From Anniella stebbinsi (lineage: Eukaryota; Chordata; Lepidosauria; Squamata; Anniellidae): DNA of 64,000 nucleotides. Shown piece by piece: positions 24,188 through 35,167 of this stretch. Positions within the stretch are counted from its first letter, which is position 1; each line of letters begins with the position of its first letter. The DNA is taken from positions 28,473,501 to 28,537,500 of the forward strand of contig JARDYH010000006.1 in assembly GCA_029215795.1 (NCBI GenBank). Reading direction: 5' to 3'. Under the pieces are notes generated by a model that was given only the letters and a program-made list of their open reading frames with translations, was not told the origin of the DNA and ran no database searches. Made by a program: the position numbers and the translations under genes.

Positions 24188-24395
24188 AGGCCCCCTCCAC
24201 AAGGATGCGCTTTTGCGCCCGTTTGTGGTATTATGCGCACTATCGCGGAGGCGCATTTACGCCTCATCCCTCTGCACGGGAGGCAGCGAGAGGCGTTGAA
24301 GCGCATTATCGCTTTTCTCCGACGCGCGTTTTAATTGTTCACATGCGGGGCTTCGGGAGGAGGAAACAGACATTTTAATTCGCTTTTTGCCTAAA
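24188..24395. repeat. Harbinger left terminal inverted repeat and subterminal motif region
   Basis: The terminal 14 bp are followed by sequence rich in GCGC-containing motifs: ATGCGCACTATCGCGG, GCGCATTTACGCC and AGCGCATTATCGCTT. The right end has the same style of motif in opposite orientation (35035-35075). Such subterminal motifs are plausible binding sites for the Myb/SANT proteins or the transposase; this is inference. Confidence 0.7.
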
Positions 24396-24968
24396 GCCAA
24401 CCCCTTTCCCAGCCCTCCCTTCCTGTACTCCACCCACAGGAATGTACCTGCCTGCCTACGTAATTTCGGGTTGCCTGGCAACGAGATGGGAGGGGGGGAG
24501 AGGGTAGAGCTGAGCGGGGGGAAAAAAATGCCTTCAGGTTACGCGCACCTTCGCGCGCGTGCATATGCATACAAGCACGTGATCAGAGCCAACCCCTTTC
24601 CCAGCCCTCCCTTCCTGTACTCCACCCACAGGAATGTACCTGCCTGCCTACGTAATTTCGGGTTACCTGGCAACGAGATGGGAGGGGGGGAGAGGGCAGA
24701 GCTGAGCGGGGGGGAAAAAATGCCTTCAGGTTACGCGCACCTTCGCGCGCGTGCATATGCATACAAGCACGTGATCAGAGCCAACCCCTTTCCCAGCCCT
24801 CCCTTCCTGTACTCCACCCACAGGAATGTACCTGCCTGCCTACGTAATTTCGGGTTACCTGGCAACGAGATGGGAGGGGGGGAGAGGGCAGAGCTGAGCG
24901 GGGGGGAAAAAATGCCTTCAGGTTACGCGCACCTTCGCGCGCGAGCATATGCATACAAGCACGTGATC
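24396..24968 (+). repeat. Subterminal tandem repeat, three 192-bp copies
   Basis: Three nearly identical units start at 24396, 24588 and 24780 (GCCAACCCCTTTCCCAGCCC). Each ends with a CG-rich palindromic stretch containing TTCGCGCGCGTGCATATGCA and CACGTGATC. The array ends about 110 bp before the transposase start codon, so it probably includes promoter and transposase-binding sequence. Part of the unit recurs inverted near the right end (34770-34935). Copies differ by only a few bases, which points to recent amplification. Confidence 0.88.
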
Positions 24969-25082
24969 TGAGTTTCGTCGACCGTTGAGTTCATTTACCT
25001 AGGCGACACCAGAGAAGCAAGTTTGGTTCCCCTTTTCTCTTTCTGAAACGCCATTTTGAGCTGGACGGGAAGAGAAGGCGAG

Positions 25083-26537
25083 ATGGCTCCTACCTCGATT
25101 TCTCGTTCCGTCATTTATGCGATTCAACTTCTGATCGCAAATATGCACGTTACATTGACTTGCCTAAGGAGAACGATTCAACGGAGAAGAAGAAGAAGAC
25201 GAATCATCATGAGAAGGCTCCAAGAGAACAACTCTTATCTTTTAAGACTCCAACAAGATAGACTCCAAGAGAATTTATTATATGTTCCTTTGATGAAAAA
25301 ACAGAGACCAAGAAGATGGTGGTGCTTCCCCAGGAGTCGTGACTGGTGGGAAAACGATGTTCTAGCCCTCTGGGGTGATGAGCAGTGGCTAGAGAACTTT
25401 AGGATGACCAGAGCAACCCTTTTCCAGATTGCAGACCATCTTCGGCCATTTCTAGAACGTCGCAATACGAACATGAGGGAAGCCATTCCAATGGTGAAGC
25501 GCGTGGCCATCTGTATATGGAGGCTAGCAAATCCTGGTGGTTACCGGGTGGTGGCTCAGCAATTTGGGATCGGTAGAACAACGGCAGCCATGATCGTTGT
25601 GGAGGTCTGCCTAGCCATGGAGCATGCGCTTCTGAGAAAAACAGTTTGCCTTGGCAATGTTCCAGAGGTGAGTCTTGTTTTTTATTATTTGGGATAGGAA
25701 AAGATGGGCTAGGCTGTTATATAGGTGGCCAAATGGAACTTGATCATTGTATCTCAAGCATGCCAGCCGATGAAGCAGTAATGATTTATTTTCCATTATT
25801 TATGTTTTCTCTCTCAGATCATGAGTGGATTTTCCAAACTGGGCTTCTTTCATTGTGTTGCAGCCACAGATGGATGTCACATTGAAATTGCCTGTCCTCC
25901 TAGGCAAGGCCCTGACTACATAAACCGGAAACGCTTTTTTTCCATGCTCCTTCAAGGCACAGTGGACCACCGTGGGCGATTCATGGATGTGGAAATAGGT
26001 TGGAGTGGGAGAAATCACGATGCCCATGTCTTCAGGAACTCTGCGTTCTTTGAGGCCATGGAAGCTGGTGTCTTCATCCCAGGGAACCCTACCATTACTG
26101 TTAATGACGTGCAGATTCCTCCACTGGTGGTGGCTGATTCCGCTTACCCCATTCGGAAGTGGCTGATGAAACCTTACGGCGGAGCCCTGGACCAGCAAAA
26201 GCAACATTTCAACCACTGTCTGTCACGGGCGAGGAATGTTGTTGAATGTGCCTTTGGAAGGTTAAAAGCACGGTGGAGATGCCTGTCGTCCAGGATAGAA
26301 CTCGCTGAAGAAAACGTCATTTCTGTGATATCTGCCTGTGTCATTCTACACAACATTTGTGAAAGTCAAGGACATGATGTTGCATTGGATCTCCACGAAG
26401 CAAGGCAAATTGAACTGGCAACCCTGGGTGCCCCGCTGCCAACGGGGCATGAGGAAATTCAAGAAAAGGCTGCTGGGGAAAAGGTCAGAGATGCCTTAAG
26501 AGGCATGCTTTGGTCTCTGCGTGGGCAGAACCCCTAG
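25083..26537 (+). CDS. PIF/Harbinger DDE transposase, 434 aa, two exons, intact
   Basis: Exons 25083-25667 (585 nt) and 25818-26537 (720 nt) are separated by a 150-bp intron with GTGAGT donor and TCTCTCAG acceptor in phase 0. The protein is 434 residues with no lesion. Residues ~45-60 form a strongly basic patch. A helix-turn-helix region (RVAICIWRLANPGGYRVVAQ and GIGRTTA, about 140-175) precedes the nuclease. The DDE_4/HARBI1-type catalytic core shows D213 (ATDGCHIEI), D302 (VADSAYP) and E338 (NVVECAFGRLKARWR). Harbinger transposases cut at the terminal repeats and, in characterised elements, need a Myb-like partner for nuclear import and DNA binding. The ATG at 25083 is the first in frame. 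The 3' UTR probably extends to AATAAA at about 27398. Confidence 0.93.
25668..25817 (+). other. Intron of the Harbinger transposase gene
   Basis: It begins GTGAGTCTTG and ends in a pyrimidine-rich TTTTCTCTCTCAG. Its removal joins the two halves of the transposase without changing frame. Reading through it instead meets a stop at 25695-25697. Confidence 0.85.
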
Positions 26538-27327
26538 GGAGGTGAGTGTTCAGTGCCAAACCCCTGTGCCAAACTTGTGTAAGCCATGTTTTCCCTAACT
26601 TTACTCTATTTACTCTATTTCAGCAAGTCACAGGAAGGAATCATGTGTCAAGACCTGCTCGAAGCATAAACCAATAAGGAAAGTGCATAAACAAATCAGG
26701 AAAGTATCCGCATAAAGGCTTCATGGCCTGAGAATGAATGAATGAATGAATGAATGTGTAGAGGGTGGGATATTGTTATTACATCCTATGCTAAAACAAT
26801 CCATCTCTAAATTTCCCTTAGAACATAGCATAGAGAGAACTGCAGGGGATCAAAGACGGTGTCGTGTGGAACCTCTGTGATGTGACCAGACCAGAAGGCA
26901 ACCGCTTCCTTTTTCTGGATCATTCATTCCATTCTTCAAGCAAAAGCCAAGTCCCGCTCCAGGCAGCACTGACTGTGTTTATTCTTTTTTCATCAAGAAG
27001 AAGCTGCATTAGGAAATGAGACTACTTATAGACAATCCCTTTAGAATATGTGAATTTTATTTTCTATGTTGATTTCGCTTTTACATTGCTGTTTTGAGAT
27101 GTTCAGTGACTTCAAAGTAACGTATGTTTCTTTCAATGTGTAATGCAATGCTGTTGCAAATGCTGTTAATTTTATTTTCTTTGCTGATTTTTCTTTTACA
27201 TTGCTGTTAGTAATTAGATATTGTTATGAGATGTATGTTCATAATAATGTGACTTTCAACTATGTTTCTTTCAATGTCAAATTAAATGCTGTTGTAAATG
27301 CTGTTAATTTTATTTTCTATGCTGAAA

Positions 27328-27912
27328 TTGTTGTTGCCATATTGCCATATTGTTGTTGCCATATTAAAAAGTGCTTATTTTAAAAATGCTTATCCTAAAT
27401 AAAATATGTTCCTACAATTCCTAGACAATAAGACTTCAGGTAACCCAACACACATATGCAGTACAGTGAACATTGCAGAAGGGCAAGTAACAGGACCACA
27501 GCCCATCCATGTCTACCTCACAGGGTTGTTTTTTTGAGAATAACATAGTACCATCTAGTCACTAACATTCTCAGGTTTTCAGTTCAGGACACCCAAAGGT
27601 ACATTCAGGACACCCAAAATTGTTGTTGCCATATTAAAAAGTGCTTATTTTAAAAATGCTTATCCTAAATAAAATATGTTCCTACAACTTGACAATGTTG
27701 ATAGTAGTATTCCTAGACAATAAGACTTCAGGTAACCCAACACACATATGCAGTACAGTGAACATTGCAGAAGGGCAAGTAACAGGACCACAACCCATCC
27801 ATGTCTACCTCACAGGGTTGTTTTTTTGAGAATAACATAGTACCATCTAGTCAATAACATTCTCAGGTTTTCAGTTCAGGACACCCAAAGGTACATTCAG
27901 GACACCCAAAAC
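27328..27912. repeat. Tandem duplication of a ~290-bp block downstream of the transposase
   Basis: The block from GTTGTTGCCATATTAAAAAG to TTCAGGACACCCAAAA occurs at about 27335-27617 and again at 27620-27912. The copies are nearly identical apart from a 20-25-bp difference near GTTCCTACAA. Each contains an AATAAA-like signal (CCTAAATAAAATATG), so the duplication doubles the candidate polyadenylation site of the transposase gene. Shorter echoes of GCTGTTAATTTTATTTTCT precede it at 27040-27320. Confidence 0.85.
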
Positions 27913-27954
27913 ACATCTGGTAACTTTCCCACTGCTCCGAACAAACGCGACAGT

Positions 27955-28085
27955 GTTTAATCACTTACGCGCGGTTCGGGAATGGTGGTTTGACGGTTCC
28001 GCGCGCATGCGCGCAACCGCTAAACCGGTCCGCGGAAACATCGCAAACCGGAAGTGAGGCCTACACTTCCTCACAATCCTTCAAG
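27955..28085 (+). promoter_or_regulatory. CpG-rich putative promoter of the accessory gene A
   Basis: The sequence changes abruptly from AT-rich to CpG-rich, with GGTTCCGCGCGCATGCGCGC, ACCGGTCCGCGG and CCGGAAGTG (an ETS/GABPA-like site) just upstream of the ATG. No TATA box is seen. This fits a TATA-less CpG promoter; the call is inferred from composition only. Confidence 0.5.
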
Positions 28086-30048
28086 ATGCCAAGAGGGAGG
28101 TATTGGAGTGATGCGGAGGTCCGCATATTGTTGGCCTTCCTCCTCCAATCCTCCCTCGTGGGAAGGATTGTGCGGAGCAGCAGCCTCCCGACTATGAGGC
28201 TGTTTAGGAGGGCGGCTGCTGCTCTGCAAATGAACAACTTTGTCCGCACTGCCCTGCAGTGTCGGACAAAGTTTAAGTACGTCAAGGCGGGCTTCTTTCG
28301 GGCCATTGCTGCCCATGGGGAGCATCCCCCCTTCCGTCAGCGTCCTCCCTACTTCGGTCAATTCCGGGAGCTGTGGCGGAAGGCGGGGAGACCAACCCCG
28401 GAGGAGAGGCTGACTGCAGGTGAGTGAGTGCATTAGCATTCTGCCCACTGCTCATTGTGTATTCTCTGGTGGATGTGCAGGTTGGGGGGGGGGGAATGCC
28501 CCAAAAACAATGACCCCTGACACAATGAGGCTTTAAGGTGGATTCCAGCATACATCTTGGGTGGGGTGGGACTAGATGCCCTTCAGGAGCCCTGTGTGCT
28601 GGTGATTCTGCCCACTGCTCATTGTGTATTCTCTGGTGGATGTGCAGGTTGGGGGGGGGAATGCCCCAAAAACAATGACCCCTGACACAATGAGGCTTTA
28701 AGGTGGATTCCAGCATACATCTTGGGTGGGGTGGGACTAGATGCCCTTCAGGAGCCCTGTGTGCTGGTGATTCTGCCCACTGCTCATTGTGTATTCTCTG
28801 GTGGATGTGCAGGTTGGGGGGGGGAATGCCCCAAAAACAATGACCCCTGACACAATGAGGCTTTAAGGTGGATTCCAGCATACATCTTGGGTGGGGTGGG
28901 ACTAGATGCCCTTCAGGAGCCCTGTGTGCTGGTGATTCTGCCCACTGCTCATTGTGTATTCTCTGGTGGATGTGCAGGTTGGGGGGGGGGAATGCCCCAA
29001 AAACAATGACCCCTGACACAATGAGGCTTTAAGGTGGATTCCAGCATTCATCTTGGGGTGGGACTAGATGCCCTTCAGGGACCCTTCCACATTTTAATGT
29101 TATTTCCCTTTTTCCCTTCCCTCTTTTTCTTAGCCCAAAACAGGAGGGCGGAAGAGGCGGCTCCGTCTCCCGAAGTGGAGGAGGTTGGGGGGACTTCTCC
29201 TCCTCCTCCTCCTTCTCCTCCTTCTCCTCCTCGGATGACCCTCCGCAGAAGGGCACGTAAGTTAAATGCAAGCCAGATTAATTAGGAATACTATTTTTGC
29301 CCAGCGTACTTTAATAATATTATTAATATTACTAATTGTAATGATATATGTATTTATTTATTTATTAATTAACAGACTCTCCCAACGGATCGAGGCGGGG
29401 AACACCATGATAGAAACTTAAAATAACATTTTTTTTCCAATTTTGAAGGGATACTCAGTCCATCGCCGTCGCCGTCTGCGGAGGAGGTGGAGGAGGAGGT
29501 GCAGGAAGAGGAGGAAGAGGAGGATGCACCCCCACCTGTCTCACCTGCTGCTGTGTCTCCAGCAGGTAATAGAAGTTCCATTGCTTTGTATAATGTAGAG
29601 TACATTGAGCATATAAAATCCAGGTCAGGGCTCCTGTATCTGTAACAGTTGTAGAGAAAAGGGAATTTCAGCCAGTGTCATTTGTATGCAATTAGTTCCT
29701 GGTGAAATCCCCTCTTCATCACAACAGTTTAACCGACCTGGATTTTATGTGGTCACCCTATTGTACAGTACAGGACTAATGGTTTAAATTTTTAATTAAA
29801 AAATGAAAAACTATATTTACATTCCTGTAAATTGAATCGCATTGAATAGCCAATGTCATTGAGTGGTACATCTTGAACTGTTTTTCTGTTGGTTATATTA
29901 TATGATTTTAAACATTTTTTTTTTCTTACCATCCCATGCAGTTCCCACTCAGGAGCGGCTGGAGAGGCTTGAGGCAGCCGTTGGAGGCATGCAGAATCGC
30001 ATGTCCTCAATGGAGGAAAAGTTGGACAAGATCCTCAGTAAATTGTAA
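28086..30048 (+). CDS. Harbinger accessory Myb/SANT-like protein A, 226 aa, four exons
   Basis: Exons 28086-28419, 29134-29256, 29449-29565 and 29942-30048 sum to 681 nt. All junctions are phase 1 with GT..AG sites (GTGAGT, GTAAGT, GTAATA donors). Residues ~5-105 form a trihelix/Myb-SANT-like DNA-binding domain (YWSDAEVRILLAFL, LFRRAAAALQ, QCRTKFKYVKAGFF, YFGQFRELWRKAG). The middle is low-complexity acidic and proline-rich (exons 2 and 3). The last exon encodes a heptad-type coiled coil (QERLERLEAAVGGMQNRMSS) that ends the protein. Myb-like partners of Harbinger transposases bind subterminal DNA and carry the transposase into the nucleus; here this is inferred from domain and position. The start is the first ATG, in a CpG-rich promoter-like region. 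The 385 bp to the convergent next gene contain AT-rich repeats. Confidence 0.88.
28441..29100 (+). repeat. Four-copy tandem repeat (~165 bp) in intron 1 of accessory gene A
   Basis: Units starting CTGCCCACTGCTCATTGTG lie at 28441, 28608, 28773 and 28938. The last is partial. Copies are nearly identical, differing mainly in the length of a G-run. The repeat lies wholly inside the intron between 28419 and 29134. Confidence 0.88.
29617..29757. repeat. Short copy of the foldback MITE core in intron 3 of accessory gene A
   Basis: The ends AAAATCCAGGTC and GACCTGGATTTTAT are inverted, and the centre matches the 1552-1871 element (CAGTTGTAGAGAAAAGGGAA, GTCATTTGTATGCAATTAGT). It is a related non-autonomous element inserted in, or carried by, the Harbinger transposon. 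Confidence 0.65.
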
Positions 30049-30433
30049 ATAGTTGAAAAAAATATTGTAAATAGTTGAAAATAATATTTGTTTAAAAAAC
30101 TAAATCTTTATTTTTGTTACTAAAACATTGTTTTGGTTTTCCTTAGCATTTTCAGGTTGGTGCAGTATTAAGGAGGGATGCCTAACTGTTTTAATAATAG
30201 ATAGGAAGCACAGTCCCAACCACACAGTGAGATATGAAAACTATATTGTAATGGTTAAATACAACATAAATAACAGCAAAAAATACCATAATTAACAGCA
30301 AATAACATAACAATTACATAAATAACAGCAAAAAAAACCATAATTAACAGCAAATTATTAACAATTACATAAATAACAGCAAAAAAAACCATAATTAACA
30401 GCAAATTATTAACAATAACATAAATCATGTATT
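30049..30433. repeat. AT-rich spacer between convergent genes, with a short tandem repeat
   Basis: About 30240-30425 repeats CATAAATAACAGCAAAAAA and ACCATAATTAACAGCAAATT in three to four copies of ~60 bp. It separates the stops of the two accessory genes (30048 on + and 30434 on -). It probably contains both 3' ends; I see no strong AATAAA on either strand. Confidence 0.6.
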
Positions 30434-33400
30434 CTAAGGGGAGAACTTTAAGGGTTTTTTTACCTCCCGTGCCGTGCGCTTTATGCTTGGCTCACCTTGA
30501 AGTGGTGATGATGAGCGCTGTGGGGGTACTGTATGGGAGCACGGGAGCAGTGATTCGTCCAAGTCTTTGGTTAAAATGTCATTCTGGGGATTTTGCAACT
30601 GGGCAGACTGGGGGTGTTGCACCCTGACTTTACGTTTCTTCTTAGCCAGGCATTTTCTCCCCTCACCCTCTCCTGAGTTCCCACCTAAGTCATTTGGCTT
30701 AGAGCTGGTCCCCTCCATACTGTCAATAGCCAACCGTCTTTTTATTGGCTGGCGTTTTCCATGGCTAGTAGTAGATGATGGGTTGGCTGTATGGGTTGAT
30801 CTTCCCGGTTCTTCCTGTTGCACCACCGTCACCAGCTTCTCCATCGTGACACATTGTCTTTCTAGAATTCTGAGAAGGGCATCTTGATTTCTTTGGTCCC
30901 TTGCATCTTCTGTTTTCAAATAGTCCAACATCTGGTCATTTTTCTGCAACATCTGCTCATGCATCTGCAAGAGGTTTGCGTTGTGTGCAGAGGCATGCTC
31001 CAGAATGCGGTCTGTGTCCCTGCTGCGTGGGGGTCTTCTGTTTCTGGCCATTTCCAGGCGCGTTGCAGGCGAGAGTGCTGACTTTTGGATGGGATGTCTC
31101 CTTCCTTCATCTGTACCTGAAGGGAAAGGGCAAAGTTTAGTGTGTTTAAAAATCATTTATTACATGTCCAGCCTGTACCATGGGTTCTCTCGCACCCTCA
31201 TCCTGAAGATGAGAATGTCCTTTCACACATTTATAAGAATTGCAGGACTGAAACTTTATCAAGCAAATAACATCGGCTGTACTTACTCGCTCCTGCTGCA
31301 GGATGGTGGAGATTTCTGGCCCTCAAATCTGCGTGGTCACTGGTTTCCGACGCACTGGTGTAACCGCTGCTTCTGTAGGCTGCCGTGGAAGAAAAAGAAG
31401 AGCTATTAGGAGGTTTCATCAATAGGCACAATCACAAACCTCCCTCCTTTTGAAATGGGGGTGGTTGTTCAAAATGGCTGCCTGCCCCTTATCCTTTTTC
31501 CCCCCCGCCCTGGAGAGACCAGAGAAACGCTGGGTAGCTAGAGGAGATCTCTCCTGCCCTCTCCTGCCCCACCCGCTCACCCGCATCTGCCTGCCCCATT
31601 TTAGAATACAATTTTTTATTCCATGGAACACAATATTAAGTTGTAAAGTTAAGAGTCTTCCAATAGGCACAATCACAAACCTCCATTTTAAATAGGGGGG
31701 GGGGGTTGTTTGTGTGTTCAAAATGGCTGCCTGCCTAGGCTGATCACATGAAAAGGAGGTCAGGGCTGACCACATGAAAAGGAGGTCAGGGCTCATGTAA
31801 CTTTAACAGTTGTACAGAAAAGGGAATTTCAGCCAGTGTCATTTGTATGGAATTTGTTCCTGGTGAAATTCCCTCTTCATCACCACAGTTAAAGTTGCAG
31901 GCAGTATACTACAGTGACCACATGAAAAGGAGGTCAGGGCTGACCACATGAAAAGGAGGTCAGGGCTCATGTAACTTTAAGTGCTGTAGAGAAAAAGGAA
32001 TTTCAGCCGGTGCCGTTTGTATGCATGCAGCACCTGGTGAAATTCCCTCTTCATCACCACAGTTAAAGTTGCAGGCAGTATACTACAGTGACCACATGAA
32101 AAGGAGGTCAGGGCTCATGTAACTTTAAGTGCTGTAGAGAAAAAGGCTGAAATCCCTCCCATAGACCACAATTTCTGGTCCCATGCACCCCAGAAATTAG
32201 CCCAGTACTTACACGGTGGTGCTGGTGCAGGATGCTGCTGGAGATTTCTGGCCCTCAAATCTGTGTGCTCACTGGTTTCCGACGCACTGGTGGAACCGCT
32301 GCTTCTGTAGGCTGCCGTGGAAGAAAAAGAAGAGCTATTAGGAGGTTTCATTCCAATAGGCACAATCACAAACCTCCATTTTAAATAGGGGGGGGGTTGT
32401 TTGTGTGTTCAAAATGGCTGCCTGCCTAGGCTGATCACATGAAAAGGAGGTCAGGGCTCATGTAACTTTAAGTGCTGTAGAGAAAAAGGAATTTCAGCCG
32501 GTGCCGTTTGTATGCATGCAGCACCTGGTGAAATTCCCTCTTCATCACCACAGTTAAAGTTGCAGGCAGTATACTACAGTGACCACATGAAAAGGAGGTC
32601 AGGGCTGACCACATGAAAAGGAGGTCAGGGCTCATGTAACTTTAAGTGCTGTAGAGAAAAAGGAATTTCAGCCGGTGCCGTTTGTATGCATGCAGCACCT
32701 GGTGAAATTCCCTCTTCATCACCACAGTTAAAGTTGCAGGCAGTATACTACAGTGACCACATGAAAAGGAGGTCAGGGCTCATGTAACTTTAAGTGCTGT
32801 AGAGAAAAAGGCTGAAATCCCTCCCATAGACCACAATTTCTGGTCCCATGCACCCCAGAAATTAGCCCTATACTTACTCGGTGGTGCTGGTGCAGGATGC
32901 TGCTGGAGATTTCTGGCCCTCAAATCTGCATGCTCACTGGTTTCTGACGCACTGGTGGTACCGCTGCTTCTGGAGGCTCCTGCCATGGCAGAAAAAGATG
33001 AGCTTTTAGGAGGTTTCATTGACATAGCCCTATACTTACTCGGTGCTGCTGCAGGATGCTGCTGGAGATTTCTGGCCCTCAAATCTGCGTGCTCACTGGT
33101 TTCTGACACACTGGTGGTACTGCTGCTTCTGTAGGCTGCCGTGGAAGAAAAAGAAGAGCTATTAGGAGGCTGCCTGCCCCTTATCCTTTTTCCCCCCCGC
33201 CCTGGAGAGACCAGAGAAACGCTGGGTAGCTAGAGGAGATCTCTCCTGCCCTCTCCTGCCCCACCCGCTCACCCGCATCTGCCTGCCCCATTTTAGAATA
33301 CAATTTTTTATTCCATGGAACACAATATTAAGTTGTAAAGTTAAGAGTCTTCCAATAGGCACAATCACAAACCTCCATTTTAAATAGGGGGGGGTTGTTT

Positions 33401-34685
33401 GTGTGTTCAAAATGGCTGCCTGCCTAGGCTGACCACATGAAAAGGAGGTCAGGGCTCATGTAACTTTAACTGCTGTAGAGAAAAAGGCGGGAATCCCTCC
33501 CATAGACCACAATTTCTGGTCCCATGCACCACAATGTTGTGTCCAATGCCCCCCTTTCCCCCTCCCCCCCCCATAAACCCAGCCTAGATCATTGGGAACT
33601 CCCTTCCTTCCATGATGTCTGACCTCAGAAATTAGCTAGGCCTGTACTTACTCGGTGCTGCTGCTGCAGGATGCTGCTGGAGATTTCTGGCCCTCAAATC
33701 TGCTTGCTCAATGGATTCCGATGCACTGGTGGTACTGCTGCTTCTGTAGGCTCCTGCCGTGGCAGAAAAAGAAGAGCTTTTAGGAGGTTTCATCAATAGG
33801 CACAATCACAAACCTCCCTCCTTTTGAAATGGGGGTGGTTGTTCAAAATGGCTGCCTGCCCCTTATCCTTTTTCCCCCCCGCCCTGGAGAGACCAGAGAA
33901 ACGCTGGGTAGCTAGAGGAGATCTCTCCTGCCCTCTCCTGCCCCACCCGCTCACCCGCATCTGCCTGCCCCATTTTAGAATACAATTTTTTATTCCATGG
34001 AACACAATATTAAGTTGTAAAGTTAAGAGTCTTCCCAACCCAACAAAAGAAACAGTCTATACCTTCAGGTTCTTCGTTTCCAATATCTTCTGGTGTCTCC
34101 AATTCTAAAAGGGGAAAACATCAGATGTGAGCTATAGGCATGAAATAGAAGGAAGAACGAGATTTTTTAAAAAATGGCAATTACAATCAATGTACCTCCG
34201 GGAGAGTAGGGCGTTCCAAGGTAGTCCTCCACATCTATTGTTTGAAGTTCACTGCTGAACAGTTCTTCTGAGCCTTCTGAGAGCGGGAAAGCCAGGGGGG
34301 AACTTACTGGGGGAGCAGCAGCAGGTGCTTGGACACGATGGATGTTCAGACTCCTGCCCACGCGATTTGGTTGAATAGTAGCATCCCCCCGAAAAATGCT
34401 ATGAAGCTCCTCAAAAAAGGGGCAGGTGGCAGCATCATTTCCTGATCGTGAATTATGATTCACGACCCTGCGATATTCCTGCCTCATTGCCTTTGCCTTC
34501 GTCCTGCACTCCTTCGCTGTACGGATATGGCCCCTTCTTTGCATTTCCTGAGCAATGGATTCATAGGCATCGAGGTTCCTATGGCTGGCATTCAGTTGAG
34601 CTTGAACTTTCTGCTCCCCAAAAATGTCCAGAAGGTCGAGAATCTCTGCCTTTTTCCAAGAAACTCCCCTTCCTGGAGCAGCCAT
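30434..34685 (-). CDS. Harbinger accessory Myb/SANT-like protein B, 568 aa, eight exons with a five-fold repeated exon
   Basis: In transcription order the exons are 34685-34196 (490 nt), 34104-34063 (42), 33753-33652 (102), 33135-33040 (96), 32979-32878 (102), 32311-32213 (99), 31379-31287 (93) and 31116-30434 (683). They sum to 1707 nt, or 568 residues plus stop. Every junction is phase 1 with GT..AG, mostly GTAAGT donors and pyrimidine-rich acceptors. Exon 1 encodes a trihelix/Myb-SANT-like domain (SWKKAEILDLLDIFGEQKVQ, AKECRTKAKAMRQEYRRVVN, ATCPFFEELHSIF). Exons 3-7 are five versions of one ~31-34-residue serine-rich unit (YRSS..TSASE.., ADLRARNLQQHPA). The last exon holds a coiled-coil segment (LLQMHEQMLQKNDQMLDYLK...) and a lysine-rich nuclear-signal-like KKKRKVRV. 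Likely role: partner of the transposase, inferred from domain and location. Confidence 0.85.
31287..33753 (-). repeat. Array of five homologous frame-neutral exons and their introns
   Basis: Five exon copies (31287-31379, 32213-32311, 32878-32979, 33040-33135, 33652-33753) are each a multiple of three (93, 99, 102, 96, 102 nt), start and end in phase 1, and share acceptor TTCTTCCACGGCAG or TTTCTGCCATGGCAG and donor GTAAGTA. Intron blocks are duplicated too. A C/T-rich block (CCTTATCCTTTTTCCCCCCC) recurs at about 31490, 33180 and 33860. A 660-bp stretch around CATAGACCACAATTTCTGGT recurs at 32160 and 32823. Pieces of the foldback MITE (ACATGAAAAGGAGGTCAGGG) recur about ten times. This is growth by segmental tandem duplication. 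Confidence 0.88.
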
Positions 34686-34769
34686 TTCGGTAGGTGGAAA
34701 AGGTGTAGAGGAAATAAATCAGGATGCAGTCTCTCTGGCGTCGCGAAGTTAAATGAGGTCAACGGTCGG

Positions 34770-34935
34770 ATCGCGCGCACGCGCTTATATGCATAGGCGC
34801 GCGACCACACCTGCGCCTCCAGCCAAACCGTTGGGTGAGCACACCCGCGCGGCTGCGCATAACCTGAGGGCTTTTTTTCAAATCTCCCGCCGGAAATCCC
34901 TTCCCTCTCCCCGCCCATCTCGTCAAAACCCGCCC
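34770..34935 (-). repeat. Right subterminal region: inverted, diverged copy of the left 192-bp unit
   Basis: Read on the minus strand it contains GACGAGATGGGCGGGGAGAG, CCCTCAGGTTATGCGCA and CGCGCCTATGCATATAAGCG. These match the order of the left unit (ACGAGATGGGAGGGGGGAGA, CTTCAGGTTACGCGCA, GTGCATATGCATACAAGC). It lies about 85 bp upstream of the start codon of accessory gene B, mirroring the left unit's position before the transposase. It probably serves as both promoter and end-recognition sequence (inferred). Confidence 0.8.
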
Positions 34936-34974
34936 TCTACCTGCTCACACCTCTCCGAAAATGCGCTTCACTGA

Positions 34975-35167
34975 AAAACTGTACACATGGTCATAACGCG
35001 CTTTACATCCCGCCGCAAAATAAAAGTCGCTATTTAACGCGCATTCGATAATGCGCATAATCCGGGAGATAACGCGCCTTTACGCCCGTTTTGCGCTCCG
35101 CTCGTGTGTAGGTAAAATTTATAATGAGCCTTCAAGGCTCATTAAACGCCCCGTGTGGAGGAGGCCT
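34975..35167. repeat. Harbinger right terminal inverted repeat, subterminal motifs and hairpin
   Basis: It contains GATAATGCGC, GATAACGCGCC and CATAACGCGCTT (complements of GCGC(A/G)TTAT), a perfect 10-bp-stem hairpin AATGAGCCTT-C-AAGGCTCATT at 35123-35143, and the 14-bp terminal repeat at 35154-35167. The hairpin has no counterpart at the left end. Confidence 0.75.

Follow-up and report, generated by a model that had tools for sequence, protein, structure and literature searches.

The locus considered here raises the question of why a transposon related to PIF/Harbinger elements should carry two different Myb/SANT proteins, given that the papers on this superfamily describe, in the text available, a transposase accompanied by a single Myb/SANT protein (PMC4482050, PMC9179366, PMC9710019, PMC8437027). 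The element lies within a stretch of 64,000 nucleotides from Anniella stebbinsi (contig JARDYH010000006.1, positions 28,473,501 to 28,537,500), which we call the window and to which all coordinates refer, and it occupies positions 24189-35166 (10,978 bp; no strand assigned). Comparison with other copies in the same genome shows that the two Myb/SANT genes, termed SANT1 and SANT2, behave very differently: SANT2 hardly varies, whereas SANT1 is hypervariable from copy to copy, a property that could not be seen from a single copy.

The three genes of the window copy have the sizes and exon numbers given in the initial annotation, with every frame intact. The transposase gene (434 aa, plus strand) is predicted to consist of two exons (25083-25667 and 25818-26537), the second of which encodes the DDE_Tnp_4 domain (120.4 bits, E 7.3e-35; cut-off 24.8). 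Downstream on the same strand lies SANT1 (226 aa), with four predicted exons (28086-28419, 29134-29256, 29449-29565 and 29942-30048), the first encoding a Myb/SANT-like domain and the last a C terminus that, as judged by eye, is coiled-coil-like. SANT2 (568 aa, eight predicted exons) runs towards them on the minus strand, its Myb/SANT-like domain being encoded by the near-invariant exon 1 (34196-34685). Predicted introns are of the GT..AG type in all three genes, phases are consistent and internal stops are absent. Both SANT1 (32.0 bits, E 1.6e-7) and SANT2 (66.5 bits, E 2.9e-18) exceed the cut-off of 27 for the Myb/SANT-like domain Myb_DNA-bind_4 (PF13837); they align at 20-24% identity and are distantly related to each other.

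A search of the 1.89 Gb assembly shows that these genes travel together. Among the 150 best of 1746 candidates scored with the transposase profile PF13359, most of them with equal score, 116 are followed within 15 kb downstream by a listed SANT2 exon 1 match on the opposite strand. The remaining 34 include members of a different family, copies of greater age and others for which the partner perhaps ranked outside the best 150. Ten further copies on seven chromosomes (L010-L029) were examined over 12 kb each. The transposase and SANT1 exons are present in all ten and SANT2 exon 1 in nine; for the tenth (L020) the listed SANT2 exon 1 match lies 11.3 kb away from the transposase. Because these copies repeat the exons, the splice sites and the ends of the window copy, the three-gene structure is not a product of chance. 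The family is young and high-copy, and intactness of the frames characterises the family, not the window copy in particular: the best 150 of 780 SANT1 exon 1 candidates and the best 150 of 1781 SANT2 exon 1 candidates are all free of stops. Broken genes also exist, with a stop in the transposase of L028, loss of the transposase ATG in L020, a stop inside the DDE domain of L005 and a frameshift in SANT1 exon 1 of L073.

A second family (L001, L002, L003 and L008), whose transposase exon 2 protein is 62-63% identical, was read beyond the transposase in one copy only (L001 with L118), and this copy has the same gene order and strands. Downstream of its transposase, and in the same orientation, is a SANT1-like stretch containing stops (31%, E 8e-8); SANT2 is encoded on the opposite strand (59%, E 3e-52), where a coiled-coil exon also matches at 29% (E 7e-4). 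On this comparison, the three-gene layout predates the split of the two families, unless it was gained separately in both. The initial annotation had considered that one SANT gene might be missing from other copies or might have been captured only here, and the copies examined bear out neither. That SANT2 is encoded on the opposite strand, at the distal end of the element and with a promoter-like element of its own, might point to nesting of two elements, or to a conventional two-gene element into which a host SANT gene was captured. Since the three genes recur in 10/10 copies and in a second family with a transposase only 62% identical, the additional gene was not captured locally. In addition, a single pair of ends delimits the element, and the sequences directly upstream of the transposase (24940-25015, plus strand) and of SANT2 (34732-34803, minus strand) are inverted repeats of each other (score 57, against 29 for the best of 200 shuffles). 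Capture or nesting was therefore rejected as very improbable.

Along most of the element, 11 copies differ by only 0-1%, and three stretches exceed this level: the start of the transposase (25083-25282, 2.5-4.6%, with a variable island at about 25088-25282 in exon 1), SANT1 exon 1 (about 10% from roughly 28183 onwards, chiefly 28183-28419) and SANT1 exon 4 (7-13%). In a larger set, SANT1 exon 4 differs by 6.6% compared with 0.48% in introns 2 and 3 (39 copies), and exon 1 by 6.9% compared with 0.47% in the preceding 100 bp (26 copies). The variation falls into discrete classes: among the best 150 of 780 SANT1 exon 1 candidates, the protein is 100% identical in 15, and a count by eye places 32, 33 and 20 in three other score classes. 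Synonymous divergence (dS) is 0.33-0.54 between the major exon 1 classes and 0-0.16 within them. For SANT2 exon 1, 149 of the best 150 of 1781 candidates encode an identical protein, and these 150 matches are free of stop codons.

The distribution of these differences within SANT1 exon 1 was analysed in 66 sequences (58 + 8, one frameshifted sequence having been removed), which contain 37 distinct DNA haplotypes and 35 proteins. In the first 11 copies the protein varies at 14 of the 111 codons (8, 48-51, 66, 69, 71, 75, 76, 91, 92, 98 and 104); 11 of these, excluding 8, 98 and 104, were taken as core codons, at which the set has 23 distinct strings. In 30 other haplotypes the ratio of nonsynonymous to synonymous polymorphism (pN/pS) is 0.96 at the 14 variable codons compared with 0.05 at the remaining 97, and the core codons carry 71% of the nonsynonymous but 13% of the synonymous differences, a concentration equalled by none of 20000 random sets of 11 codons. 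The same codons vary in six haplotypes with older backbones (pN/pS 1.02, compared with 0.10 elsewhere). Sequencing noise or hypermutation in a young family is ruled out, as 33 codons vary only synonymously and none of the 150 listed exon 1 matches contains a stop.

These data must be weighed against a neutral patchwork, in which gene conversion from diverged relatives introduces variation into exons, these alone being still similar enough to recombine, so that selection for diversity is not needed. Random conversion of this kind is a serious rival, although we consider it rather unlikely. The genome does contain older relatives (L004, L007 and L005, at about 94, 92 and 84% DNA identity over roughly 2.9 kb), dS is raised along with dN, its nonsynonymous counterpart, and mosaic structure and free recombination are clear. 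Types within SANT1 exon 1 are themselves mosaics, exon 1 types are found in free combination with exon 4 types (10, 2, 17 and 7 copies; Fisher p 0.69), and SANT1 and end variants also recombine freely. However, the best conserved exons, SANT2 exon 1 and transposase exon 2, should convert best and yet are free of patches, with the qualification that the sampling itself involved transposase exon 2. Furthermore, the same few codons are changed in independent haplotypes, and in eight copies chosen for their unusual exon 1 types the intron backbones differ by only 1.7% on average, which indicates that the donors were not another family as far as can be seen.

Where the variable residues lie in the protein was addressed by modelling. 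A first model of the SANT1 domain was poor (predicted local distance difference test, pLDDT, 49.7) and was discarded; a second, with SANT2 relatives added, has a mean pLDDT of 84 and a predicted template modelling score (pTM) of 0.75, with helices at 9-20, 25-30, 37-49, 56-77, 90-100 and 105-110. From the alignment with SANT2 and the Myb/SANT fold, we take helix 56-77 to be the DNA-reading helix. In the model the variable codons map to the turn before this helix, to the helix itself and to the start of helix 90-100, so the amino-acid change is centred around the predicted recognition helix. A search with SANT1 exon 1 among solved structures gave no match; the closest solved structures to the model, with modest scores, are Sap1 (6ext) and the GT-1 trihelix and telobox Myb domains (2jmw, 2qhb), which differ from SANT1 in being cellular proteins and are 10-21% identical.

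The location of the variable codons on and beside the predicted recognition helix could mean that SANT1 alleles choose different target DNA or subterminal sites and that the family is splitting into separate systems. We regard this as improbable: the ends and subterminal repeats hardly differ between SANT1 classes, SANT1 and the ends are exchanged between copies as described above, and 14 target-site duplications, too few for a test, contain no class-specific site. Since copies of different SANT1 type have nearly identical ends, the proposal in the initial annotation that each of the ends could be recognised by the two SANT proteins is questionable as far as SANT1 is concerned, and a two-protein scheme of end recognition with a variable SANT1 is disfavoured. 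With ends that do not change with SANT1 type, the variable face probably does not read them; it is more likely to meet a host factor, or other SANT1 subunits.

A possible contact is suggested by the third variable stretch. The variant start of the transposase (type B) occurs in 7 of 13 copies carrying the SANT1 class QRNG and in 1 of 25 others (p 0.0009, in a test that ignores the relatedness of the copies), and in the first 11 copies no marker between 25300 and 27400 separates the type B/QRNG copies from the rest. Linkage across such a mixed backbone suggests that the transposase N terminus and SANT1 may touch.

We propose the following model, which we favour by a small measure over all other readings taken together. 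In it, this three-gene DDE transposon is recently active, with a constant transposase and SANT2 and with SANT1 as a variable module kept diverse by selection. We infer a division of labour in which the constant machinery consists of the transposase together with SANT2. The latter is most likely the partner that binds the unchanging subterminal DNA and helps to bring the transposase to the nucleus and to the ends. A role in nuclear and end delivery of the transposase has been reported for the Myb-like protein of zebrafish Harbinger3_DR, in the text available of PMC9179366 and PMC9710019. SANT2 can be regarded as the classical partner because it and the transposase have evolved at the same pace (59 and 62% identity between families) and hardly vary within the family. 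SANT1 has evolved faster than either (31% between families), and its polymorphism affects the parts that seem to face DNA and to mediate dimerisation. It would be a separate partner that has turned into a variable specificity module, with recombination shuffling its Myb/SANT and coiled-coil versions among near-identical copies while homogenising the backbone. Selection would then keep the versions diverse, as a rare type may escape recognition directed at common types, whether by a host factor or by defective SANT1 subunits supplied by the many other copies. If other SANT1 subunits are what the variable face meets, like would assemble with like, and rare types would have an advantage.

A more specific version of this model, which we offer tentatively and consider doubtful, is a self-recognition polymorphism akin to incompatibility genes, in which frequency-dependent selection maintains many functional SANT1 versions. 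Each copy would then cooperate with copies of its own type, and would evade either host recognition or the poisoning effect of subunits made by decayed copies. Several observations weigh against selection for diversity in general. The pN/pS at the variable codons is only about 1. The sampling of full copies started from a list of tied scores. Finally, at seven core codons the residues of the oldest copy are those of class QRNG, while its exon DNA is no closer to QRNG (84.0%) than to other classes (81.0-84.6%); the shared residues may therefore have arisen by convergence.

The remaining question is to which group of transposons such an element belongs. An alignable DDE_Tnp_4 catalytic domain, terminal inverted repeats and a short target-site duplication place it, on sequence grounds, in the PHIS superfamily as a PIF/Harbinger-like element. 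The left inverted repeat (24189-24204, 16 bp, plus strand) matches the right one (35151-35166, minus strand) at 14 of 16 positions, and the element starts with GGCC at either end. The initial annotation was correct in describing one element but included positions 24188 and 35167, which differ from copy to copy, as do the flanking bases generally, and are flank; the ends given here are common to the other copies. An identical 3-bp duplication is present in 14 of 20 copies having both ends, the window copy included (7 of 9 among the first such copies, the window copy excluded). These 14 duplications comprise 13 different trinucleotides, preceded by C in 11 and followed by G in 11, so that the target site can be written C|NNN|G with the trinucleotide not fixed. 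PHIS groups are defined by target site, according to the available text of PMC4482050. The TWA target of PIF/Harbinger is found in one duplication (TTA 1/14, TAA 0/14), which, together with the presence of two Myb/SANT genes, where that group has two open reading frames (ORFs) for a transposase and one Myb/SANT protein, argues against the narrow PIF/Harbinger assignment made initially. The CWG target of NuwaI is likewise rare (CTG 1/14). C|NNN|G is nearest to NuwaII but lies outside every group definition, and for this reason no group is assigned.

Comparison with individual systems rests on the text available for each. NuwaII, reported from a turtle among other hosts (PMC4482050), also pairs a DDE transposase with a Myb/SANT gene and has ends starting with GG; its 3-bp duplication likewise sits between a C and a G (C|TNA|G). 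Only 3 of the 14 duplications here are TNA, and NuwaII has two ORFs and a mean length of about 4.7 kb, whereas the present element has three genes and a length of 10,978 bp in the window and of 9.4-10.9 kb in ten other copies that could be measured. Zebrafish Harbinger3_DR and PIF/Harbinger elements (PMC9179366, PMC9710019) share the DDE_Tnp_4 transposase, a Myb-like partner and a 3-bp duplication, and their Myb-like proteins reportedly diverge faster than the transposases; they differ in the TWA target and the single Myb-like protein. Harbinger-Snek of sea kraits (PMC8437027) is similarly a very large and recent Harbinger-like expansion in one animal lineage, but has two proteins, and the accessible text does not mention diversity of the DNA-binding protein. 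In the open-access papers that our searches covered, Repbase being outside the scope, we found neither a three-gene member nor such a polymorphism. PMC7998251 was considered as a description of a Harbinger element with a third ORF and rejected, as the third ORF there concerns long terminal repeat (LTR) elements. SANT2 exon 1 had no relative in a scan of viral_contigs.

Several further features of the element vary between copies or are repetitive. The window copy itself lacks a matching duplication, with GTA and TCA at its two sides, and belongs to the six of 20 copies without one (with L018, L022, L132, L134 and L140); in L018, L134 and L140 the two sides differ by a single base only, and recombination between copies or imprecise insertion could be the cause in copies of this kind. 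At the left end, a 192-bp subterminal repeat is present in three copies in the window element (24395-24970, plus strand), each containing TATGCATA, a motif that occurs four times in the element, three at the left end and one at the right. Relative to the window copy, the ten other copies have a left end reduced by about 192 bp. Between the transposase and SANT1, a duplication of about 290 bp (27349-27911) differs in copy number among elements. A 165-bp unit is tandemly repeated in SANT1 intron 1 (28438-29079; 3.9 copies, 98% matching). In SANT2, exon 2 (34063-34104) is followed by five repeat exons (exons 3 to 7: 33652-33753, 33040-33135, 32878-32979, 32213-32311 and 31287-31379) and by exon 8, which includes the stop (30434-31116), all on the minus strand. 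The repeat exons (31287-33753 in the window, and in L010-L029) are near-identical, 93-102 nt long, multiples of three and of phase 1-1. Their number ranges from 2 to 6 per copy (11 copies, L020 counted over an incomplete stretch), and since it varies, the predicted length of SANT2 varies by about 33 aa per unit.

The retention of a third gene in two diverged families raises the question of the role of a second SANT protein in these transposons. Rarer still than the third gene is the localised hypervariability, which resembles an arms race or self-recognition system that operates, inside one genome, on just one of the subunits of a cut-and-paste transposon. Its confirmation would provide a directly testable case of a transposon avoiding poisoning by its own dead copies or silencing by its host, for which many natural SANT1 alleles would be available for comparison in a single genome.

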